Origin: a virus
IMG/VR virus record: IMGVR_UViG_3300042894_006732
Coordinates: 1 to 23,594 of that record
Direction: 5' to 3' (one strand)
Length of the DNA: 23,594 nt
Of the stretch, positions 4,855-18,731 are shown piece after piece. The translations under genes were made by a program, and so were the position numbers. Position 1 is the stretch's first letter. Each line of letters begins with the position of its first letter. The notes beneath the pieces were generated by a model. The model saw only the letters and a program-made list of their open reading frames with translations. It had not been told where the DNA came from and did no database searches.

Positions 4855-5936
4855 GTTGCAGCCCCGGCGCGGCGCTCCGCGTGCTCCATCGTGCGCACCG
4901 AGGCGCGATGCCCGTAGCAGAGTTCGCGGAGGTCCTTCCGCTTCGTGTACGCGACTCCGACAGGGTGCGGGCACCCACGCACGGCGCACGGGTCGTTCGC
5001 GCAAATCACCCGGCGCGGCGCGATGGCCAGCACCAAGCCACCGCGCGGCACGGCGTCCGCCACGAAGCGCGGCGCAAAGAGGGCCTCGAAGGCGCCGAGA
5101 GTGAGCGGCGCGGCCTCGGGCCGGGGCGGCATCGGGCGCGCGAGCGGGCCACCGTCGCGCACCTCATCACGGCACGGAGGGCACCACGCTTGGAACGCGG
5201 GCGCCGTGTCGGGGCGCACGATGCCCACGGGGCGCTCGTGGCACCGCTCGCACGGCGTCTCCACCGTGGACGGCACCTCGGGAAGGATGCCCACGCGGCG
5301 CTTGTATTCGGCGGTACAGGCCGTCTCGCGGCACGTGGAGCACCACCCCTCACGGCCCTTGCGCGTCGAGGGCACCACACGCGCCGCGGGGCGCTCGTGG
5401 CACTTCGAGCACGTCGTGGGCTCGAGGGTGGCGCCCTTCGAGCGCGCGCGCCGCGCGTCGCGACGGCACACCGGGCACCACGCCCGCGTCTCGGGCGCGG
5501 TCGAGGCCAGCACGCGGCCCGCCGGGCGCTCGTGGCACCGATCACACGTCGCGCGTGCCTTGGGCGCGCGCACCACCGCGTTGCGCGCATCGACGCGGGC
5601 GCGCAGGCGGCACCGACCGCACCACCCGTATTGCTCGCGCGGCGTGGCGTTCGTGGAGCCGTGGAAGGGCTTCGCGGCGCGGTGCAGGTGGCACCGCTCG
5701 CACACCTTCGCGGCGGGCTTCTCCGGGGGCGGAGGAGGCGCGGGGAGCTCCACACCGGCGTGGTGAGCACCGAGGGCGCACCCGGCACACGTCACGAACT
5801 TCGCGCTGGTGTGACCCGAGCGAGCTTCGCCGCGCGCGAGGTGGCGCGCGCCGCACGCGGTTGTGGTGAGCGAGCATCGCAGCGCGACGCACCCGAAGAG
5901 GACCGGGAGGTGGACGCGGGAGGACGGGGCGCTCAC
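4851..5936 (-). CDS. Tandem zinc-ribbon repeat protein
   Basis: 361 residues of unknown function. Four repeats of the form C-x2-C-H...W-C-x2-C-R are visible: C79/C82 with C106/C109, C131/C134 with C154/C157, C176/C179 with C199/C202, and C229/C232 with C252/C255. Three of them start with the near-identical C-x2-CHERP(A/V). An N-terminal CAGC (50-53) and a distinct C-terminal cluster (C312, C317, C322, C340) add more probable zinc sites. The repeats sit 45-53 residues apart and must have arisen by duplication. GTG at 5936 is chosen because it overlaps the previous stop (GTGA). Zinc ribbons in array often bind nucleic acid or protein partners, but no enzyme domain is seen. Confidence 0.7.
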   Translation of the reverse strand: MSAPSSRVHLPVLFGCVALRCSLTTTACGARHLARGEARSGHTSAKFVTCAGCALGAHHAGVELPAPPPPPEKPAAKVCERCHLHRAAKPFHGSTNATPREQYGWCGRCRLRARVDARNAVVRAPKARATCDRCHERPAGRVLASTAPETRAWCPVCRRDARRARSKGATLEPTTCSKCHERPAARVVPSTRKGREGWCSTCRETACTAEYKRRVGILPEVPSTVETPCERCHERPVGIVRPDTAPAFQAWCPPCRDEVRDGGPLARPMPPRPEAAPLTLGAFEALFAPRFVADAVPRGGLVLAIAPRRVICANDPCAVRGCPHPVGVAYTKRKDLRELCYGHRASVRTMEHAERRAGAAT

Positions 5937-8671: not shown

Positions 8672-10128
8672 TGGAAGGCCTCATCGTAGACAACTTCGCC
8701 GGGGGCGGCGGCGCGAGCTCGGGTCTGGAGGACGCCCTCGGGCGCCCCGCCAACATCGCGGTGAACCACTCCCCCGCGGCCATCGCCATGCACAAGGCGA
8801 ATCACCCGCACACGCGGCACTATCAGGAGGACGTGTGGGCGGTGGACCCTCGCGAGGCGTGCGGCTCCCAGAAGGTGGCCGTGGCGTGGTTCTCCCCCGA
8901 CTGCACCCACTTCTCCAAGGCGAAGGGCGGGCAACCGCGCTCGAAGGAGGTGCGCTGTCTGGCGGACGTGGTGATCCGTTGGGCCCGCGAGGTTCGTCCG
9001 CGCATCGTGTTCCTTGAGAACGTAGAGGAGTTCCTCACCTGGGGGCCGTTGTCCGATGAGGGCCACCCGATCAAAGGGCGGGAGGGGGAGGACTTCCGAG
9101 CGTGGCGCGCGAAGCTCGTGGAGCTCGGGTATCGCGTGGAACACCGCACCATCGTGGCGGCGGACCACGGCACGCCCACGACGCGAAAGCGCCTGTTTCT
9201 CGTGGCCCGCTGCGATGGGCTCCCGATCGTGTGGCCCGACGCGACGCACGGGCCGGGGCGCGGGAGGCCCTATCGCACGGCGGCGGAGATCATCGATTGG
9301 AGCCTCCCGTGTCCGAGCATCTTCGACCGTAAGCGCCCGCTGGCGGAGGCCACGCTCCGACGCATCGCGGCCGGTGTGCGGCGCTACGTCATCGATGCCG
9401 CGCGCCCGTTCATCGTGCCGTTGACCCACCAGGGCAACACGGAGCGGGTGTACTCCATCGACGCGCCGCTCCGAACCATCACCGCGGCCAACCGCGGTGA
9501 GCTCGCGCTCATCTCCCCCACGCTGGTGACCACGGGTTACGGGGAGCGCGAGGGCCAGGCGCCGCGCGTGCCCGGTCTGGGCAAGCCCCTCGGAACCGTG
9601 GTGGCCGGCGGTCAGAAACACGCCCTCGTGGCCACCTTCTTGGCAAAGCATTACGGGGGTGTCGTCGGCCACGGCCTCGAGCGGCCGGTGGGCGCTGTCA
9701 CCTCGAAGGACCACCACTCCCTCGTGGCCGCACAACTCGAGCTCCCGAGCGTGGGCACCGTGGGTGCGATGGGCCACGCCGCGGAGGTGCGCGCCTTCCT
9801 GGTCAAATACTACGGGGCGGACGGAGCGCCTACGTCCCAACAGAGCCTCTTCGATCCGCTCCACACCGTCACCACCAAGGCGCGATTCGGCCTGGTGACC
9901 ATCCGAGGGGTGGCCTACAGAGTCACGGACATTGGGATGAGGATGCTTGCGCCCCGCGAGCTCTTCAACGCACAGGGGTTCCGGCCGGACTACATCATCG
10001 ACCCCGAGCTTGGAGGGCGGAGGCTCACCAAGACGGAGCAAATCGAGTGCGCGGGCAACAGCGTGTGCCCGAAGGTCGCGCGCGCCATCGTCCACGCCAA
10101 CGTCTACCAGCGCGCGGTGGCCGCTTGA
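8671..10128 (+). CDS. DNA (cytosine-5) methyltransferase, phage orphan type
   Basis: 485 residues. It transfers a methyl group from SAM to C5 of cytosine in a short target. Motif I is DNFAGGGGASSGLE (7-20). Motif IV is WFSPDCTHFSKAKGG (73-87) with catalytic C78 in a PDC rather than the usual PPC. Motif VI is FLENVEEF (114-121), and motif VIII TTRKRLFLVAR (170-180). Motifs IX/X are RMLAPRELFNAQGF and IECAGNSVCPKVARAIV. Between VIII and IX lies an enlarged target-recognition region with four related units: PLRTITAAN (266), PLGTVVAGGQKHALV (306), PVGAVTSKDHHSLV (339) and PLHTVTTKARFGLV (396). No restriction enzyme gene is adjacent, so protection of phage DNA from host restriction is the likely job. 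Confidence 0.93.
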   Translation: MEGLIVDNFAGGGGASSGLEDALGRPANIAVNHSPAAIAMHKANHPHTRHYQEDVWAVDPREACGSQKVAVAWFSPDCTHFSKAKGGQPRSKEVRCLADVVIRWAREVRPRIVFLENVEEFLTWGPLSDEGHPIKGREGEDFRAWRAKLVELGYRVEHRTIVAADHGTPTTRKRLFLVARCDGLPIVWPDATHGPGRGRPYRTAAEIIDWSLPCPSIFDRKRPLAEATLRRIAAGVRRYVIDAARPFIVPLTHQGNTERVYSIDAPLRTITAANRGELALISPTLVTTGYGEREGQAPRVPGLGKPLGTVVAGGQKHALVATFLAKHYGGVVGHGLERPVGAVTSKDHHSLVAAQLELPSVGTVGAMGHAAEVRAFLVKYYGADGAPTSQQSLFDPLHTVTTKARFGLVTIRGVAYRVTDIGMRMLAPRELFNAQGFRPDYIIDPELGGRRLTKTEQIECAGNSVCPKVARAIVHANVYQRAVAA

Positions 10129-10916
10129 ACACCGAGCTGGTCCAGCGATGGAGCGAGCGCCGGGGCATCTACCGCCCCGCCGGGGAGACCTTCGAGCCGC
10201 GCGGCCACGAGGTGGCACCCATCACGGACGACCGCACCGCGCGCGCCTTCGTGGTTCGGCACCACTACTCCGCGAGCTACCCCGCGGCGCGCCGTCGCTT
10301 CGGTCTCTACGGCCACGGGGAGCTCCCCGGGGAGCTCCTCGGGGTCGCGGTGTTCTCCGTCCCGATGCACCCGGCGGTGTTGCGCCCCTTCGCGCCGGAC
10401 ACCTCGGTGGAGCTTGGGCGCTTCGTCCTCCTCGATTCGGTGCGCGGCAACGGGGAGAGTTGGTTCCTTGCGCGCTGCCTCCACCTCCTCCGCCACGAGG
10501 GGTTCGCGGGGGTGGTGTCTCACTCCGACCCGATGCGCCGCCGCGACGCCTCGGGGGCGGCGGTCTTCGGGGGCCACGTGGGCACCATCTACCAGGCCAC
10601 CAACGCGACCTATGACGGCACCACGGCGCGGGCGACGGTGAGGCTCCTCCCCGATGGGCGGGTGTTCTCCGCGCGGGCCATCTCGAAGATTCGCGCGGGC
10701 GAGAAGGGCCGGGAGTACGCCACCGAGGAACTCCTCCGCGCGGGCGCGCGAGCCCCGAGGGCGGGGGAGGAGGCGCGCGCGTGGCTCTCCGAGGTGCTCC
10801 CGCTGGTGACCCGCACGGCGCGCCACCCCGGCCAACACCGATACCTCTTCGCGCTGGACCGCGCCGCGCGTCGGTTGCTCCCCGCCTCGAAGCCTTACCC
10901 GAAGGTGATTCCGTGA
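10125..10916 (+). CDS. Mom-family adenine modification protein (GNAT fold)
   Basis: 263 residues. It resembles the phage Mom type, which in Mu converts adenine to a bulky N6 (methyl)carbamoyl derivative and blocks many restriction enzymes. Visible family-like blocks are FVVRHHYSASYPAARRRFGL (42-61), LLGVAVFSVP (71-80), ELGRFVLLD (96-104), NGESWFLARCLHLL (109-122), GVVSHSDP (129-136) and GHVGTIYQATNA (150-161). The C-terminal SARAISKIRAGEKGREYA and a further helical region follow. The start is TTG at 10125, overlapping the methyltransferase stop as TTGA. I recognise the family from memory of these blocks rather than a search; the GNAT superfamily is safer than the exact chemistry. Confidence 0.7.
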   Translation: MNTELVQRWSERRGIYRPAGETFEPRGHEVAPITDDRTARAFVVRHHYSASYPAARRRFGLYGHGELPGELLGVAVFSVPMHPAVLRPFAPDTSVELGRFVLLDSVRGNGESWFLARCLHLLRHEGFAGVVSHSDPMRRRDASGAAVFGGHVGTIYQATNATYDGTTARATVRLLPDGRVFSARAISKIRAGEKGREYATEELLRAGARAPRAGEEARAWLSEVLPLVTRTARHPGQHRYLFALDRAARRLLPASKPYPKVIP

Positions 10917-11198: not shown

Positions 11199-12560
11199 AT
11201 GGCCCGCCCACGCACCGGACAGGCCACCTACCGCCGGGGGCGATGGGTGGCGCGAATCCTCCTCCACCGCGAGCCCCGCACAGAGTCCGGGGAGTACCGC
11301 ACCGCGCAAGTCGAAGTGACGCGCGAGGGCGCGCCCGTCACCTCGAAGGAGCCCGGCGCGAAGTCTCACGCGCACCGCTACGCCCAACGCCTCCAGGGCC
11401 TCTACGATGACGGCCGGTGGGAGCCCGTGCGCGCCGCGAACTCTCCGGGGAAACCGGATGGTTCGGACGGCTCGAACTCTTCGACGCCTTCGAAGAGTTC
11501 CCCCGAGGCCACGACGGTGGGCGTGTGGGTGGTGCAGTGGCTCGCAACGCAGAGCTACTCCGAGGCGAAGCGCGACGCCGCGCGCGTGGCCGTGTACCTC
11601 CCGCCCACCGAGCTGGCGCGCGTGGCGCTCGGGGAGGTGCGCCCGCCCCACGTCGCGCGCTTCGTGGCGGAGCTCCGGGCCAGCACCTCCCCGAAGACCG
11701 CGAAGGCCCCCGCGCCTCGCACCGTGCGCAACGTGTACGACGTGGTGCGGCGCGCGCTCAAAGCCGCGGTCTTCGAGGGGCTCCTCCTCGCAGACCCCAC
11801 CACGAGCCTCCCGAAGACGGCGCGCCCGCACGCGGAGGACGCCCACCCCGAGGCCCGCGCGGGTTATCGCCTCGGGCGGGAGGAGGTGGAGTCGCTCGTG
11901 GCCGCGAGCGCCGGCCGCTGGCGTGTGCTGTGGGTGCTCCTCGCGCTCACGGGCGCGCGCCTCGGGGAGGCCCTCGCGCTCCGCTGGCGGGACCTGCTGG
12001 AGGACACGCCGCTCCGCCGGGTTGTGATCGCGCGCCAGGTGCACCACCGGACGCGGGCCATCACCGCCACGAAGACCCGCGAGGCCCGCACGGTCCCCCT
12101 CCACCCCGAGCTCCGCCGCGTGCTCGAGGTGTGGCGCTCGGTGGGGTGGCGCGAGGAGTACGGGCGCGAGCCGCTCCCCGAGGACCTTCTCCTCCCGGCG
12201 CGGAGTGAGCCAGGGCGCCCGTGGGGACAGGCGAGCGACGCGGGCGGGCCCCTGTGGGCACAGGATGCGTACCGCGCCCTCGGGCGCTCCCTCGAGGCCG
12301 CGGGCATCCGCGCGCACCGCGTCCACGACTTGCGCCACACCTTCGCCTCCCTCTGCGCGGACGCGGGCATGAGGGAGAACGTGGCCGCGAGGTGGACGCA
12401 CGCCCCGAGCGGAGGCTCCGCCCGCCACCTCTACGCCCTCCCCTCGTGGGCGGCGCAATGCGCGGAGATGGTCCTCCTCCGGGTGTCCTTCCCCGAGGCG
12501 GAGGGGGTGGAGGAGGAGGCCCTCGAAGGGGTTTCCGTACCGGGTTCCCGTACCGGGTGA
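11199..12560 (+). CDS. int: Tyrosine-family site-specific integrase
   Basis: 453 residues. It catalyses recombination between attP and the bacterial attachment site through a 3'-phosphotyrosine. The N-terminal part (about 1-75) is the arm-binding type. A Ser/Gly/Pro linker (82-107) leads to the core-binding domain (about 108-210). The catalytic domain has TGARLGE with R254, the beta-hairpin Lys in TKTREARTVPLHP (K292), HDLRHTF with H376 and R379, H401 in RWTHA, and nucleophile Y412 in RHLYALP. The ATG at 11199 follows a TAGCCT element by 7 nt. The last codons overlap the arm-type repeats of attP. The gene is convergent with the tRNA fragment, as usual for tRNA-integrating phages. Confidence 0.95.
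   Translation: MARPRTGQATYRRGRWVARILLHREPRTESGEYRTAQVEVTREGAPVTSKEPGAKSHAHRYAQRLQGLYDDGRWEPVRAANSPGKPDGSDGSNSSTPSKSSPEATTVGVWVVQWLATQSYSEAKRDAARVAVYLPPTELARVALGEVRPPHVARFVAELRASTSPKTAKAPAPRTVRNVYDVVRRALKAAVFEGLLLADPTTSLPKTARPHAEDAHPEARAGYRLGREEVESLVAASAGRWRVLWVLLALTGARLGEALALRWRDLLEDTPLRRVVIARQVHHRTRAITATKTREARTVPLHPELRRVLEVWRSVGWREEYGREPLPEDLLLPARSEPGRPWGQASDAGGPLWAQDAYRALGRSLEAAGIRAHRVHDLRHTFASLCADAGMRENVAARWTHAPSGGSARHLYALPSWAAQCAEMVLLRVSFPEAEGVEEEALEGVSVPGSRTG
11474..11500. repeat. Perfect 10-bp inverted repeat inside the integrase linker
   Basis: GAACTCTTCG (11474-11483) and CGAAGAGTTC (11491-11500) can pair with a 7-nt loop. The region encodes the low-complexity linker of integrase and is less GC-rich than its surroundings. 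Confidence 0.6.
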
Positions 12561-12732: not shown

Positions 12733-12921
12733 TCAGTACATCAGCACGCGCGCCGCACGGGGCGAAACCACCGTGGCGGACATCACGCACGCGACGCAGA
12801 ACCCGAGGGCCGCGACGCCCACCACGCTCGCGGCGCCCACCATGGCGAAGCCCGCGGCGTAGCGCGCCGAGTCGATGACGCGGGCACAGCGCCCCGAGGG
12901 GCGTTTGTAGGGGTCGTCCAT
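12733..12921 (-). CDS. Small membrane protein (62 aa), last gene of lysis-type cassette
   Basis: MDDPYKRPSGRCARVIDSAR is followed by a long hydrophobic stretch (about residues 21-52: YAAGFAMVGAASVVGVAALG, then FCVACVMSATVV) and a short basic tail. One long or two short membrane segments fit a small holin, but there is no homology I can name. The ATG lies 4 nt after the preceding stop, with GAGGATGATGAG as ribosome-binding region. It is the last leftward gene before attP. Confidence 0.6.
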   Translation of the reverse strand: MDDPYKRPSGRCARVIDSARYAAGFAMVGAASVVGVAALGFCVACVMSATVVSPRAARVLMY

Positions 12922-12925
12922 CTCA

Positions 12926-13729
12926 TCATCCTCCGTAGGCGGCGCGCGCGAGGCGGTCGTCCAGCGCGCCCTCTGGCGCGAGGAACCACGCGGTTTCCTG
13001 TCCGAGCTTCCACGCCGCGAGTCGCCCGCTGTCGTGTTTCTGGCGCGTGCGAATGATCCCGTACGCGGGGCCCTCGCGCCCCGTCGCGGCGCGCGCATCG
13101 TCGGCCACGAGGAGCTCCCAGGCGCGCCACCGTTCGTGCTCGGGGACTGCCGCGAGCTGGTCCGCGTAAGGCGCCATGCGCGACCACAGGCCACCGGCCC
13201 CGCGCGAGAACGCGGTGAAGGCGAGGAGCACCGCCCACGTGCTCGATTCGTCGATGGGGTCGAGGCTCGTGGGGAGCTTGCGGCGCGCGTTCTCGAGGTG
13301 ACGGCGGAGGTTCGCGAGGCCCACGGCCACCTGGTCCGGCACGCCGCGCTCCCCGCGCCACCCCTCGGGGTCGAGTGTGGCCGGGCGCCCGAGGAGCTTC
13401 ACCACGAGCTCCGACGGCGCGAGCTTCACCCACGCGTTGTAGTCCGCCTCGGGGTCGAGGCTGAACGGCCGGCGGCGCTCCGTTTGGAAGTACCCCACCT
13501 CATCGAAGGGCGCGCGGCGCTTCGGGTCGGTGGCCTCGCCCGTGTTCTCGTCGCGCGAGGCGAACGCGGTGAACCCGAGGAACACCATCGCAGGCACGCC
13601 CGGCCACGCGATCGGCACCTGACGCCGCAGCTCGGCGCCGAGGGTGCGGTTCCATCGCTCCAAGAGGCGCGGGAGCTTCTCGCGCGCGTAGGCGCGCGGG
13701 TGCCCCGTGCGCGCAGACCGCGAGCTCAC
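12926..13729 (-). CDS. Putative divergent endolysin/lysozyme-like protein
   Basis: 267 residues with no signal peptide or membrane segment. An N-terminal region contains IAWPGVPAMVFLGFTAFASR, then DENTG (candidate catalytic Glu at about 61) and DEVGYFQTE (about 76-84). The last resembles the G-x-FQ motif that follows the catalytic Glu in lytic transglycosylase/lysozyme folds. A later STWAVLLAFTAFSRGAGGLW and a Trp/Tyr-rich C-terminus complete it. This motif reading is weak. Position among small membrane proteins next to the tail genes is the stronger reason to suspect a cell-wall hydrolase. The start could be GTG 13735, 13732 or 13729; I prefer 13729 because it overlaps the preceding stop as GTGA. 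Confidence 0.5.
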   Translation of the reverse strand: MSSRSARTGHPRAYAREKLPRLLERWNRTLGAELRRQVPIAWPGVPAMVFLGFTAFASRDENTGEATDPKRRAPFDEVGYFQTERRRPFSLDPEADYNAWVKLAPSELVVKLLGRPATLDPEGWRGERGVPDQVAVGLANLRRHLENARRKLPTSLDPIDESSTWAVLLAFTAFSRGAGGLWSRMAPYADQLAAVPEHERWRAWELLVADDARAATGREGPAYGIIRTRQKHDSGRLAAWKLGQETAWFLAPEGALDDRLARAAYGG

Positions 13730-13806
13730 CACCACCCCGCAGCGAACGCCTGCGCGATGCGCCAGAGCTCAGTGCCCCAGCCCACGAACGCCGTCACGTC
13801 GATCAT
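13726..13806 (-). CDS. Tiny hydrophobic peptide (26 aa)
   Basis: MIDVTAFVGWGTELWRIAQA followed by FAAGWW, a Trp-rich amphipathic or membrane-associated peptide. The ATG at 13806 overlaps the previous stop (ATGA), and its TGA overlaps the next GTG. Coupling at both ends and the absence of any gap suggest it is translated. A role as an accessory of the lysis cassette is only a guess. Confidence 0.45.
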   Translation of the reverse strand: MIDVTAFVGWGTELWRIAQAFAAGWW

Positions 13807-14171
13807 CGGTCGTCTCTTTCTGCGGCGCCTGCCGCTCCGTCGTTGTCGGCCGACGTCGACGCGTCGACCGGGCCCGCGTCGGCGAGCTGGGCGCGCGCCA
13901 CCGAGGCCGCGGCCACGATCACCTCGCGCCCCGCGGGGCAGATCACGTCCCAGGTCGCGAGGATCTTCGCGATCCCACCCGCCGCACCGACGGCGCCGCC
14001 CACGCACCCCGTGGCGAGCAGCACCGCGAGGCACACCAGCCACACGCCGCGCGCACGCGGTCGCCACGGCCCGGGCCGGTGCGACGGTCGCAGCGCCCAC
14101 GCGACGACGCACGCGGCGGGGTAGAGCAGCGCGCACAGGCACCACGCGAGCCACCAGCCAGCGCGCCTCAC
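13803..14171 (-). CDS. Small two-segment membrane protein with internal lipobox-like motif
   Basis: 122 residues from GTG at 14171 (GTGA overlap). The first membrane segment is about 6-27 (GWWLAWCLCALLYPAACVVA). The second is about 43-60 (VWLVCLAVLLATGCVGG), preceded by basic RPRARG and ending in a lipobox-like LLATGC. The acidic, Ala-rich C-terminal half follows. A translation start at the internal GTG (V43) would give a short lipoprotein, reminiscent of nested Rz/Rz1 spanins. This is speculative, and the family is unrecognised. Confidence 0.5.
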   Translation of the reverse strand: MRRAGWWLAWCLCALLYPAACVVAWALRPSHRPGPWRPRARGVWLVCLAVLLATGCVGGAVGAAGGIAKILATWDVICPAGREVIVAAASVARAQLADAGPVDASTSADNDGAAGAAERDDR

Positions 14172-14290
14172 GCCGCCCTCACGATCTCGACGGGTGCGCC
14201 GCCGTCGCAGCCCTCGCCCGTCGCGGCGATCACGGCCACCGCGAGCAGCCCCACGTAGACGCGCCAGAGCGTGCGCATCGCGCGCCTCAC
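14168..14290 (-). CDS. Small membrane or lipoprotein-like peptide (40 aa)
   Basis: GTG at 14290 overlaps the stop of the receiver protein (GTGA) and gives VRRAMRTLWRVYVGLLAVAV, then IAATGEGCDGGAPVEIVRAA. An in-frame ATG at 14278 would give 36 residues. It has a basic start, one hydrophobic segment and a Cys (EGC) close behind, which resembles a lipoprotein signal, though the lipobox is imperfect. It could be an Rz1-like outer-membrane spanin partner given its neighbours, but it is too short and degenerate to be sure. Confidence 0.45.
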   Translation of the reverse strand: MRRAMRTLWRVYVGLLAVAVIAATGEGCDGGAPVEIVRAA

Positions 14291-14961
14291 GCCGCACCGC
14301 CCAGGCGCGCCGCGAGGGCGCCACCGACGGCCAGCACGAGGGCGCCGGGCCCGCCGCGCACCGGGAGGCCACGGGCGGCGGCGACGATGTCCGCGACCCT
14401 GACTCCCGCGAGGAGGAGGATGCCTGCGATGCACCCGCCCTGGATCCACTCCGAGGCGGGGCGCACGAACAGCAGCACGCCGCCGAGGATCGCGAGCGCC
14501 AGGCCGTCGATGATCGTCGCGAGGGCGCGGGCCCCGAGCGACTCAGGCGCGGGCGACGTGCTCGGCGCCGGCGGCGGGAGTAGCGCGGCGACGCCTGCGA
14601 GCAGCGCCTCGTGGGCGACGGGCTTCGCCAGATACGCCCACCCGCGCGGGTCTGCCACGGCCGGGAGCGACTCGGGCGCGCGCCCGCTCACGAGCAGCGT
14701 GGGCACGCTCCGCGACGTGAGCGCGGCGTGCAGCGGCGCTGCGTCGCTGTCGAGCGAGAGGTCGAGCACGCACGCCGTGGGCGTCGAGCCCGCGAGCGCC
14801 GCGAGAGCTCCCGCGACGGTGTCGGCCTCGGTGACGTCGTGGCCGCTCTCGCGCAGAGGCGAGACGAGTGAGAGGCGGGCGGCTGCGTCGTCGTCGACGA
14901 CGAGGACGCGGGGGCGGGGTGTGGGGCTCAATCGAGGTCTCCGGGTGCTGGGTAGGCTCAC
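14287..14961 (-). CDS. Response-regulator receiver domain fused to membrane segments
   Basis: 224 residues. The N-terminal domain (about 18-128) is a complete two-component receiver. The acidic pocket is in VLVVDDDAAARL (D23-D25), the phospho-acceptor D67 in ACVLDLSLDSD, the switch S92 in LLVSGRA, and K113-P114 in YLAKPVAHEALL. A Pro/Ser linker (129-142) leads to hydrophobic segments at about 145-166, 174-196 and 205-218, with no DNA-binding output domain. It sits in the membrane-protein cluster between tail fibre and putative lysin, overlapping the next gene by GTGA. GTG at 14961 is chosen because AAGGA lies about 9 nt upstream; later TTG codons are possible. Control of a membrane function, perhaps lysis timing, by host phosphorelay is an attractive inference but unproven. 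Confidence 0.75.
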   Translation of the reverse strand: MSLPSTRRPRLSPTPRPRVLVVDDDAAARLSLVSPLRESGHDVTEADTVAGALAALAGSTPTACVLDLSLDSDAAPLHAALTSRSVPTLLVSGRAPESLPAVADPRGWAYLAKPVAHEALLAGVAALLPPPAPSTSPAPESLGARALATIIDGLALAILGGVLLFVRPASEWIQGGCIAGILLLAGVRVADIVAAARGLPVRGGPGALVLAVGGALAARLGGAA

Positions 14962-15023
14962 GGGCGCGTTCCTTCGAGGGAAGACGGCCCAGCGCCACGC
15001 GACGCCGGGCTCGTCGGGGTGGA

Positions 15024-16238
15024 TCAGATGGTCGAGATGAGGAGGCCGTAGTCCGTCGAGAGGTTGGTGGCGGCGATGCCGGTGAAGGTGAGCGAGTCGC
15101 TGCCGCCGCTGCCGACGGTGTAGGCGAGCGAGATGGCGCCCATGCCGCTCGGGTCGGCGCTGCCGTTGTTGTCGGCGAGCTCGCCGCTCACGACGCTTCC
15201 GACCAGCACGCTGTTGCCCGACGAGCCGCGGCGCGCGATGAAGGTGATCTCGCGGTAGAGGCTCTTCGCGAGGTCGCTCGTGTTCTTCACCGCGACCCAC
15301 ACCGCCACGCGGCGCAGGCTCGAGGTCGAGAGAGCCGGAAGCGAGATCGTCTCCGGCGTGGCGTCCGTCGTGGTGAGGGTGGCGCGCGAGCCCATCGCAC
15401 CGAGCGAGCTGGTGAGGCCGAACTGCGTCGCGTTCTGGTAGCCGTTCTGACTCGCGCTCGCGGCCTGAACGTTGAGGCCACCGGCGGCGCGGGTGATGAC
15501 GCCCGACGAGTCCACCTTCGCGCGGAGCTTGCCGCCGCTGATCTCGAGCCCGGGATCGGTGGCGAGATCGACGGCGATGGAGCCGCCCGAAATGGCGATG
15601 CCGTCACCCGCCGTGTAGCTCGCGCCACCCGAAAACTGCGTCCACACGAGGGCGTCGGTGCCCACGACGGCGCCCGACGAGACGACATAGCCGCGGCCCG
15701 CGGCGACGGTGCCAGCTTCGACGAACGTGAAGCCCCCCGCCGCGTTCGAGGCCGCGGCCATGTCGGCGGCGCGCGCCCACGAGCCCGCCGCGGCGACGTA
15801 GATGCCGTTCTGCGACGCGGTGCTCTGGTCCTTGACCAGCACGCGGTTGCCCGCGACGACGGACACGCCGTCGATGGTCTGCTCACCGCTCAGGGTGAGG
15901 TTCGCCGTCGAAGCGGCGGCGACGGAGGGCTTCACGTCGAGGCCCGCGGCGACGCTGTCCACGTACGCCTTCGTTGCCGCGTCGGTGGCGTCGCTGGGCG
16001 TGAGGAGGTTGGTGATCTTCTGGCTGTTGACCGAGAGGGAGCCCGTGAGCCCGCCCGACGCCGTGCGGAGGTTGCTCTCCGACTGCGCGCCCGTGGTCAC
16101 GTCGCTCGTGGTGGCGAGGTTGGTGCCGCTCTTCTGGAGGGTGCCCGTGAAGTTGAAGGCCGCGGTGAGGTCGATCTGTGACGAGTCGGCCTTGCCGGTC
16201 GACTGCGGAACGAGAAGGCTCTTGAGATCTTGCGACAT
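15024..16238 (-). CDS. Phage tail fibre protein
   Basis: 404 residues, rich in Ser, Thr, Ala and Gly with no Cys. Typical tail-fibre segments are present: SQKITNLLTPSDATDAATKA (then YVDSV) near 72-97, and LTLSGEQTIDGVSVVAGNRV followed by LVKDQSTASQNGIYV near 114-148. These occur in many phage distal fibres and form trimeric beta structures. The C-terminal part (about 270-404) is probably the receptor-binding or trimerising end. The ATG at 16238 has GGAG about 10 nt upstream and follows an intergenic hairpin (16254-16276), so expression may be set apart from the upstream adhesin. It is the last structural gene before the lysis-type cassette. Confidence 0.85.
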   Translation of the reverse strand: MSQDLKSLLVPQSTGKADSSQIDLTAAFNFTGTLQKSGTNLATTSDVTTGAQSESNLRTASGGLTGSLSVNSQKITNLLTPSDATDAATKAYVDSVAAGLDVKPSVAAASTANLTLSGEQTIDGVSVVAGNRVLVKDQSTASQNGIYVAAAGSWARAADMAAASNAAGGFTFVEAGTVAAGRGYVVSSGAVVGTDALVWTQFSGGASYTAGDGIAISGGSIAVDLATDPGLEISGGKLRAKVDSSGVITRAAGGLNVQAASASQNGYQNATQFGLTSSLGAMGSRATLTTTDATPETISLPALSTSSLRRVAVWVAVKNTSDLAKSLYREITFIARRGSSGNSVLVGSVVSGELADNNGSADPSGMGAISLAYTVGSGGSDSLTFTGIAATNLSTDYGLLISTI

Positions 16239-16253
16239 TCGATGTGCTCCGTG

Positions 16254-16276
16254 AAAAGCGCCGCCCTATGCGGCGC
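16254..16276 (-). terminator. Intergenic hairpin with T-run (attenuator-like)
   Basis: On the minus strand GCGCCGC (16276-16270) pairs with GCGGCGC (16264-16258) over a 5-nt loop and is followed by TTTT (16257-16254). It lies in the 56-nt gap between the LamG-like adhesin and the tail fibre. It is one of the few non-overlapping junctions, and could reduce read-through into the fibre and lysis genes. Confidence 0.6.
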
Positions 16277-16294
16277 GTGGGTGACAGTGAATGG

Positions 16295-17110
16295 CTACGG
16301 CGCGGCGCCGATGGCCTTGCGGTAGCGCGTGGCCCACGTGGTCTGTGACCACACCGAGGTCTCGACGCCTGCGCGCAGAATCGAGCCGTCGAGGCCGTTC
16401 CCGCCGCCGTTCGCTCCGAGGCGCCACGAGCCCGCCGCGCCCCAGGTGAGCGGCGTGTCCACGCTCTTCGAGGCGACTTGCCGCCCGTCGACCCACACGC
16501 GAAGGGTGCTCCCGTCGTAGGTCGCGCCGACGAGGTGCAGCCGGTTGATCTCGACCTCGTTCGCACCCGAAGAGACGGTGTCGTAGGTCGGTGTGCTGCC
16601 GAAGGGCGCGAAGGCCCGCACGACGCCGTTGGGGAGGATGTCCACGAAGGCGCCAAAAGGCGCGCTCCACGACGCGCCGTAGTCTCGCGCGATGACGCAC
16701 CCGGCGGAGCCGGGCATCGTGCGGAGCACCACGAGCGCCCACAGGGTGACGGCCGTCGTGGTGCCCGTGCTCGGGTACACGCCCGCGCCGCCGTTCACCT
16801 CGCTTGTCGAGGCGCCCGTGCATCGGAGCGCCGTGCCCGCGAGCGGAGAGAGCGCCTCGGTGTATCCGATCTGCGCGGCGCCCGCGTCGGCGAGCGAGCA
16901 CGACACAGAGCCCGTCGAGGCGAGCGGCGAGGCGCCCTCGGAGCACTCCCACAGGAGCGCGCTCGAACCCGCGGGGCGACGCAGCGCGAGGAGGCGGTCC
17001 AGCACGGTCGATGACGGGAGGGCCTCCGGGGCGCCGTCTGCGTCGAGGCCGAGCATCGTCGAGGGCGTGGCGTCCGCGGGGATCAGCACCGCTTCGAGGT
17101 TGCGTGCCAT
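16295..17110 (-). CDS. Tail-associated adhesin with concanavalin A/LamG-like domain
   Basis: 271 residues. The N-terminal 55 (MARNLEAVLIPADATPSTML, then GLDADGAPEALPSSTVLDRL) look like a fibre-attachment segment. From about 100 a LamG/ConA-type jelly roll is suggested by TAVTLWALVVLRTMPGSAGC, a buried-strand pattern, then RLHLVGATYDGSTLRVWVDG, RQVASKSV and WRLGANGGGNGLDGSILRAG. The 'Y-DG-x-LR-x-WVDG' strand pair is characteristic of this fold. Such domains bind surface glycans, so this probably helps host recognition. ATG at 17110 comes one base after the stop of the propeller fibre. Receptor specificity cannot be read from sequence. Confidence 0.75.
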   Translation of the reverse strand: MARNLEAVLIPADATPSTMLGLDADGAPEALPSSTVLDRLLALRRPAGSSALLWECSEGASPLASTGSVSCSLADAGAAQIGYTEALSPLAGTALRCTGASTSEVNGGAGVYPSTGTTTAVTLWALVVLRTMPGSAGCVIARDYGASWSAPFGAFVDILPNGVVRAFAPFGSTPTYDTVSSGANEVEINRLHLVGATYDGSTLRVWVDGRQVASKSVDTPLTWGAAGSWRLGANGGGNGLDGSILRAGVETSVWSQTTWATRYRKAIGAAP

Positions 17111-17111
17111 C

Positions 17112-18731
17112 TCAGACCTCCACCGCGAGCAGTTCGCCCGTGACCGCGACCGAGAAGAGCACCTTCACCTGCCCTGTCGCGCTGTTGACGGTGCACGTCG
17201 GTGAGAGCGTGCCGCCTTCGGTGCGCACTGCGTCGATGGCGTAGACGCCGCTCCCGCTGTCGTAGACCTGTGCCTCAATGGTGCCGTGCCACCGTCCCGC
17301 GCCGCTCGCTTGGAGCGCGCGCCCGCTAAGGCGCACGTAGGCCGGGAAGCTCCCGGGCGTGAGGGTGACCAGCGTCTGCGCGGTGAAGGTGAGCGTCGTA
17401 CCGCCCCCGCCTCCGCTCGCAGCCGGCGCCCATGTGGTGCCGTTCCACGTGAGTGCGTCGCCCACGCTCGGTGCGGCGCTGGACACCTCGCGCCCGCGCA
17501 GGTAGCCCGCGTCGGCGAGGTACGCGGGGAGTGAGCCCGCCACATACGGCCCTGGCGCGGGGTCCGCGGCGCGCCCGCACGCGAGGGCGAAGCCGTTCCC
17601 GAGCGCGAGCCACCGCCCGCCCTCGAAGACCAGCGCGAAGAGGTCGGAGGAGGAGGACGGGACCGCGGGCGTTCGAAGCCCCAACCACGACACGAGGTCT
17701 GTGGAGGTCCAGAGCCACGGCGCGGCGCTCGAGGTGGCCACCCACGCGCCGTCCTGATACCGGAGCTCGGTGAGGTACGTGGGGAGGAGGTCCCCGGCGG
17801 GAGTCTCCGCGGTCCACGTGGTCCCGCTGTTGAGCGAGCGGTAGAGGTTCTGCGAGGTGCTCCCACCGAGGCGGTACGCCACCACCTCCCCGTCCTCACC
17901 CGCCGCGAGGCGCCACGAGGCGGAGATTCCGAGGGTGGACTTGTATGCGAACGCGGCCCCGTCGCTGGAGCTGTAGACCTGTCCGCTTTGGGTGATGAAC
18001 ACCCACCGCTCCCCGTCGAAGACCACGTCGCGCCCGTCGGCGCTGCGCGCGGTGCCCGAGACGGAGTAGGCGGACCAGTTTTGCCCGCTGTCGTCCGAGT
18101 AGAAGCCCTCGGACGCGGTGAGGAGGAAGGTCCTCCCGCCGTGCGACGCGAGGGCCTTGGGCTCGCTCGGTGAGCTCGGGAAGCTGGCGCCCGACCACGA
18201 GCCCGACCCGGACCCGATCGCGCCCACGCCCGAGCCATCGTCCACCACGGTGGTGTGGAGCTCGTACCCGCCGGACGTGGTGCCCGCGAGCATCCATCGC
18301 ACGCCGTCCGTGTGGAGCGCGAAGGGCGCGGCCATCCCCGAGGGGACGTTGGTGCGGCGCGTCCACGTCTCGCCCGTCTGCGACACGCGGAGCGAGGTGG
18401 TGGGGCCCGTCTCCTCCCCCACCACCGCGAAGCGATAGCAGGCGTCGGTCCCGTCCGAGGTGGCGGTGTCTACGTCGAAGGCAAGGCGCGTGGGCGCGTT
18501 GAAGGTGGCGGGAGAGGTGGCCCACGCGGAGCGCGTCCATGCTCCGAGGTTCGGCCCGCGCAGGAACTCCACCCACTGGCCCGCGAGGCCCACCAGGAAG
18601 TTGAAGTAGGGCGCGGGGGGCAATTGCCCCGGCGCGAAGCCTGCCGCCGAGAGCCCCGACGGGGGCTCCACCATGTCACCCGAGGCGGCGGCGGTAGCCC
18701 ACGAGAGGGGGCGTGAAGGACGTTGGGCCAT
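17112..18731 (-). CDS. Tail fibre with BNR/Asp-box beta-propeller
   Basis: 539 residues. The N-terminus (about 22-58: PPSGLSAAGFAPGQLPPAPY, then FNFLVGLAGQWVEFL) is a typical baseplate-attachment segment of phage fibres. The middle carries repeated Asp boxes of sialidase-type propellers: SQTGETW (117-123), SDDSGQNW (212-219), SSDGAAF (255-261), SLNSGTTW (299-306) and TSTDLVSW (342-349). Each is followed by a hydrophobic strand such as DGVRWMLAG or DGERWVFI. A Gly-rich hinge (near 443-447) precedes a C-terminal beta domain. Asp-box propellers are found in glycan-active or glycan-binding proteins; no enzymatic residues can be assigned. ATG overlaps the previous TAA (TAATG). Confidence 0.82.
   Translation of the reverse strand: MAQRPSRPLSWATAAASGDMVEPPSGLSAAGFAPGQLPPAPYFNFLVGLAGQWVEFLRGPNLGAWTRSAWATSPATFNAPTRLAFDVDTATSDGTDACYRFAVVGEETGPTTSLRVSQTGETWTRRTNVPSGMAAPFALHTDGVRWMLAGTTSGGYELHTTVVDDGSGVGAIGSGSGSWSGASFPSSPSEPKALASHGGRTFLLTASEGFYSDDSGQNWSAYSVSGTARSADGRDVVFDGERWVFITQSGQVYSSSDGAAFAYKSTLGISASWRLAAGEDGEVVAYRLGGSTSQNLYRSLNSGTTWTAETPAGDLLPTYLTELRYQDGAWVATSSAAPWLWTSTDLVSWLGLRTPAVPSSSSDLFALVFEGGRWLALGNGFALACGRAADPAPGPYVAGSLPAYLADAGYLRGREVSSAAPSVGDALTWNGTTWAPAASGGGGGTTLTFTAQTLVTLTPGSFPAYVRLSGRALQASGAGRWHGTIEAQVYDSGSGVYAIDAVRTEGGTLSPTCTVNSATGQVKVLFSVAVTGELLAVEV

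Follow-up and report, generated by a model that had tools for sequence, protein, structure and literature searches.

A receiver domain fused to a membrane-type tail in a phage lysis cassette, and stand-alone receivers among the lysis genes of other phages, suggest host-signal influence on lysis timing

We found that a metagenomic virus carries, between its tail fibre genes and its lysis-type genes, a gene for a two-component receiver domain fused to a hydrophobic, membrane-type tail, that this fusion recurs at the equivalent place in other phages, and that stand-alone receivers occupy lysis cassettes in several further phage groups. That such switches turn up amid lysis genes in several viruses unrelated to one another suggests that, in some phages, a host signal has a say in when the cell bursts. 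We give a probability of roughly 0.4 to the reading that several unrelated phage lineages independently recruited a receiver into their lysis machinery, where a coiled-coil partner or a fused tail keeps it at the membrane and host phosphorylation decides when lysis occurs. The narrower proposition, that a phosphoryl signal from the host can affect lysis through a membrane-held receiver, appears to us evenly balanced, and in it we infer both the phosphorylation and the effect on lysis. How phages adjust lysis time to the state of the host is an old question, and the known lysis timers, such as holins and antiholins, mostly have no defined input from host signalling. If the reading is correct, the lysis-cassette receiver would connect the two-component signalling of the host with lysis in a concrete way and would represent a previously unrecognised class of lysis regulator; the arrangement is present in cultured Alteromonas phages, which makes the idea testable with existing isolates.

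The window, by which we mean the whole 23.6-kb metagenomic virus record analysed (IMGVR_UViG_3300042894_006732), contains the fusion as an intact reading frame of 225 codons including the stop (Table 1). The receiver (residues 17-128) is followed by a Pro/Ser linker (129-145) and a hydrophobic tail (146-224) with two to three segments. We performed an HMMER search, which matched residues 19-122 to PF00072 (31.4 bits, curated cut-off 30.2, E 2.3e-7), and a phmmer search of PDB, which matched PrrA (8e-8) and other response regulators. The AlphaFold2 model of the receiver has the (beta-alpha)5 fold (pLDDT about 68-87), and a Foldseek search with this model returned PhoP receivers (2.6e-6). These results agree with the initial annotation, which had recognised a receiver domain; of the key residues listed there, D67, S92, K113 and P114 stand, while the acidic pair is D23/D24, with D25 an extra Asp beside it. 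The switch position (110) is a Tyr. No DNA-binding domain was matched in the window protein or in the proteins of L009, L048, V22, A5, R8W, H4/4, R9Y2 and XX1924 discussed below; the linker and hydrophobic segments take the place of such a domain, as had been claimed, and an ordinary DNA-binding response regulator is ruled out by the absence of the output domain. An assembly or frameshift artefact is likewise ruled out, since independent contigs carry three divergent alleles and further contigs have near-identical copies. The ribosome-binding site of the gene is identical in L009 and L004.

Within the tail, the best 19-residue hydropathy windows lie at 148-166 (2.30), 177-195 (2.12) and 206-224 (1.56), giving two strong membrane-type segments and one weaker one. 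This pattern was reached by 22% of composition shuffles, and the segmentation is explained by hydrophobic composition, not by a special arrangement. AlphaFold confidence in the tail is only 40-50. Such hydrophobicity is not general in the window, where one of nine tail or baseplate proteins has a single hydropathy window of at least 1.6. The protein has no match to known holin families or to DUF2730.

Table 1. Coordinates of the fusion gene and neighbouring features in the window
Feature	Position	Strand	Remarks
Receiver-membrane fusion gene	14287..14961	(-)	224 aa, GTG start; PF00072, AlphaFold/Foldseek, alignment of 15 receivers, hydropathy
Ribosome-binding site of receiver gene	14962..14980	(-)	AAGGA-type, gaaggaacgcgccc before GTG
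Tail-fibre-like protein gene	15024..16238	(-)	Directly upstream of receiver gene; by position; 33% identity to same-place protein in L022
Gene for 40-aa small hydrophobic protein	14168..14290	(-)	GTGA overlap with receiver gene
Gene for 122-aa protein, two hydrophobic segments	13803..14171	(-)	Second segment ends in lipobox-like LLATGC (lipobox read by eye)
Gene for 26-aa peptide, GWGTE motif	13726..13806	(-)	Motif seen by eye; present also just before L048 endolysin
Gene for 269-aa protein, endolysin position	12926..13735	(-)	Equivalent position is that of the L048 endolysin (2007-2921)
Gene for one-segment membrane protein	12733..12918	(-)	Kept downstream in L004, L006, L009, L048
Phage integrase gene	11199-12560	opposite to receiver gene

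Baseplate and fibre genes lie upstream of the receiver gene on the same strand, and downstream follow, in order, the 40-aa hydrophobic protein, a lipoprotein-like protein, the 26-aa peptide, the 269-aa protein and the one-segment membrane protein. The GTGA overlap with the neighbouring gene, noted in the initial annotation, is present. Judged from its sequence, the 122-aa protein is a candidate outer-membrane lipoprotein or spanin partner. The 269-aa protein had been called a possible lysozyme: it does sit where L048 has its endolysin, which makes it, by position, a candidate peptidoglycan hydrolase and the candidate endolysin of the window, but it had no match in Pfam, PHROG, PDB or a phylum-wide search, and its predicted structure has a pLDDT of 34. 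Its motif FASRDENTGEATDPKRRAPFDEVGYFQTE looks lysozyme-like by eye. An endolysin in the same gene run is present in L048, L031 and PB15. Given the integrase gene, the phage is probably temperate. The junction of tail fibre and lysis genes is a common site for accessory genes, and a lysis role does not follow from position by itself.

Two other phages, L009 and L048, carry the receiver-tail fusion at the corresponding position, with 43-53% identity. The L009 protein (257 aa) is 43-45% identical to the window protein and scores 38.3 bits against PF00072; that of L048, a 36-kb contig with an integrase, is 249 aa long and 49-53% identical, and its receiver scores 30.1 bits, just under the cut-off. 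In L048, genes for a lipoprotein and a metallopeptidase-like protein come after the receiver-tail gene, and then an endolysin gene whose product has a peptidoglycan-binding domain (PG_binding_1, 27.7 bits). The lysis-type cassette described for the window thus has counterparts in which the same fusion lies beside lysis genes. The membrane core of the tail is 80% identical between L009 and L048 over 51 residues (dN/dS 0.39), against 43% for their receivers, which argues that the tail is under constraint. We found no stand-alone copy of the tail domain in IMG/VR or in cultured phages. The genes flanking the L009 fusion (baseplate, 269-aa, 65-aa and first fibre) are 78-98% identical to those of the window, and its second fibre, receiver and lipoprotein genes are diverged replacements of the window versions. 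When window positions 13757-17445 are compared with L009 and L022, the block from second fibre to lipoprotein, including the receiver, is swapped between the conserved flanks; the receiver therefore travels with the fibre block, possibly matched to the host.

A second group of metagenomic phages (L019, L029, L030 and L031), with a baseplate J protein about 47% identical to that of the window group, carries a stand-alone receiver of 129-130 aa heading the lysis genes. Its gene follows and overlaps a gene for a coiled-coil protein with an N-terminal transmembrane segment, and is followed by genes for a membrane protein, for a lipoprotein that shares 50% identity with its L048 counterpart, for a metallopeptidase-like protein and for an endolysin of the Amidase_2 or peptidoglycan-binding type (Amidase_2 at 52.9 bits in L031). 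PF00072 scores are low in this group (21.6 bits for L019) and the key residues are kept, with Ala in place of the switch aromatic residue; dN/dS is about 0.35-0.54, which indicates purifying selection on these receivers. Two prophages of cellular genomes, L061 with the same cassette (9672-10250) and L027 with a similar one (13982-14515), have neither the coil gene nor the receiver, so the two genes look like one optional module. The receiver is also absent from five J-bearing prophage regions of cellular genomes and is therefore dispensable. When 379 cellular genomes from the phylum to which L027 belongs were searched with a profile of the group-2 receivers, nothing matched at E <= 1e-14, a weak result given that the search had no positive control. 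Several of the metagenomic records compared are fragments. As a separate observation, HExxH-type metallopeptidase-like proteins recur in these cassettes (L031 6987-7655, L029 6980-7690, L048 1244-1912), with weak or no Pfam matches (DUF6782, SprT-like).

Receivers were also found in the lysis cassettes of cultured Alteromonas phages of five groups. Phages V22 and A5 were reached through the literature on CheY-like phage proteins, and PB15, XX1924, R8W, H4/4 and R9Y1-3 were added by tblastn; the V22 seed was picked for its "CheY-like" label, not for lysis, and the later matches derive from these seeds, which makes this a biased sample. In V22 the gene order is coil, receiver, Rz-like spanin and a protein with two transmembrane segments, and in A5 the same order continues into an endolysin. 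In PB15 and XX1924 an XhlA-like gene precedes the receiver, followed by an endolysin or a phrog_1501 protein and then a holin (in PB15, endolysin match 1.6e-31 and holin match 2.6e-40). The foturviruses R8W and H4/4 have a class II holin, a one-transmembrane coil protein, the receiver and a membrane protein, and in R9Y1-3 a one-transmembrane coil protein and the receiver are followed by a GH108 lysozyme (R9Y3 is known only as a search match). Homologs are thus not confined to host chromosomes far from phage lysis genes. A tail-fibre chaperone reading was ruled out, as the chaperone is a separate gene in V22 and A5. We did not count matches in Pseudomonas phage Y11/sp., Acinetobacter "MD-2021a" and unannotated Listeria and Staphylococcus "phage" contigs, all of which resemble host DNA.

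We aligned 15 receivers and found both acidic residues, the phospho-Asp, the Ser and the Lys kept in all 15, at between-group identities often of only 10-30%. The switch residue varies: it is Y, W or F in the fusions and Ala in the group-2 receivers. In PB15 and XX1924, a Ser replaces the Pro that follows the Lys. Every stand-alone receiver measured (about 125-150 aa) is preceded by a gene for a membrane-tethered coiled-coil protein, with the receiver start lying -29 to +2 nt from the coil stop and the genes usually overlapping. The fusion phages have no such coil gene; there the receiver bears its own membrane tail. A coil gene beside the stand-alone receivers and a fused tail in the fusions is what one would predict for a receiver that has to act at the membrane, next to lysis proteins. 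The coil proteins fall into families mostly without mutual match, the one weak match being that of L019 with PB15/XX1924, and those tested against Pfam gave no match to DUF2730 (PF10805). The helical segments of some coil partners contain histidines, in RLDDLMLHLMNQR (L073 3699-3995), RLTELTMHLLNQR (L075 3630-3995) and RHTLRAEMHTAM (L029 5559-6026); a phospho-acceptor role for them would be pure speculation. A search for the histidine-kinase ATPase domain (HATPase_c) gave no match in seven metagenomic phage records, which are possibly fragments (control positive in 14 of 14 genomes), and the phosphate would therefore come from the host.

Under the proposed mechanism, the fusion protein would be made late, together with the lysis genes, and its receiver would be anchored in the host inner membrane by its own hydrophobic tail. 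D67 would be phosphorylated by a host histidine kinase or a small-molecule phosphodonor, and the S92/Y110 switch may then alter the behaviour of the membrane part or, through contact, of a neighbouring lysis protein. Lysis timing would thereby come to depend on a host signal, which might act in either direction, as a delay or as a trigger. In other phages, related and unrelated, a stand-alone receiver and the membrane-tethered coil protein encoded upstream may do the same job, the fusion in the window being seemingly these two parts merged.

The main rival is that the receiver is a decoy, which late in infection drains phosphoryl groups from the histidine kinases of the host and so silences a host response, for example to envelope stress, while leaving the lysis proteins untouched. 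A full phosphorylation site with no output domain, in a protein that stands alone or is membrane-anchored, would suit such a role, a membrane anchor would bring the receiver near membrane kinases, and the output-switch aromatic residue is missing from the group-2 receivers. There is also a precedent: PIT4, described as an early protein of Pseudomonas phage LSL4, binds the kinase domains of several host histidine kinases (PMC10714779) and so resembles the window protein, as proposed, in acting on host two-component systems. We nonetheless consider a decoy rather unlikely, as it leaves unexplained the recurrent coupling to a membrane coil gene and to spanin, holin or endolysin genes, and the late position, where an early gene would suit it better.

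The receiver fold might instead serve as a constitutive adaptor or scaffold on a lysis complex, with phosphorylation playing no part. The variability of the switch residue and the loss of the Pro in PB15/XX1924 fit this idea, yet the acidic pair, phospho-Asp, Ser and Lys, which all 15 receivers keep despite their divergence, would be superfluous in a scaffold, and we hold this reading to be improbable. More doubtful still is an accessory gene for host signalling (a class II auxiliary gene, "PhoB", or a motility or phosphate response) that sits by chance in a hot spot between tail fibre and lysis genes. This is the published reading for V22, A5 and R8W, and several relatives lack the receiver; against it, no receiver tested has a DNA-binding domain, the receivers of the window, L009 and L048 are fused to a membrane-type tail, and the cultured phages of five groups all carry the receiver in the lysis cassette with genes overlapping or abutting. 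Control of lysis by a host signal, through phosphorylation of the receiver, is the mechanism that we consider likeliest.

The window protein shares with single-domain response regulators (CheY, PF00072) the fold, acidic pair, phospho-Asp, Ser/Thr and Lys, and differs from them in its hydrophobic tail and in having no partner kinase gene in the phage records tested. Like antiholins, other lysis-timing proteins and the Mu gp25 releasin, it is small, putatively membrane-associated and encoded in a lysis-type region, but it has no sequence match to releasin (DUF2730) or to known holin families. To our knowledge, no antiholin carries a receiver. In layout, the coil genes beside stand-alone receivers resemble the Mu gp25 releasin (DUF2730, PMC9239132), with one transmembrane segment and a cytoplasmic helix.

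The initial annotation knew of no described system of this kind, which, in the open-licence papers searched, holds for receivers as lysis genes; CheY-like proteins themselves had been reported. Those of V22 (gp30) and A5 (gp11) and the R8W "PhoB" were published as an auxiliary metabolic gene in a host-recognition module or as a DNA-binding PhoB (PMC7289586, PMC10579305, PMC8228385). Neither the V22 nor the A5 paper mentions a holin, endolysin or spanin, and "lysis" occurs once in the A5 paper, in another context. Like the window receiver, these receivers are phage-encoded, have a full active site and lie downstream of a tail fibre gene among spanin, holin and endolysin genes; unlike it, they stand alone. 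Full-text searches of open-licence papers turned up no description of a receiver in a lysis cassette or of one joined to a membrane tail. CheY-like phage proteins were thus already known, and the lysis-cassette setting and the membrane-tail fusion appear to be new. If our reading is right, annotations that file such receivers as metabolic or phosphate-response genes would need correcting.

Two details of the deposited annotations concern the receivers of cultured phages. In R8W (L073 3992-4453) and H4/4 (L074 3992-4453), the gene is annotated as a DNA-binding response regulator or PhoB and only the receiver domain is present. In PB15 (L071 4992-5390), the deposited "response regulator" begins at 5013 and so lacks the first strand; starting from the in-frame ATG at 4992 includes this strand and makes the gene overlap its upstream neighbour by 4 nt.
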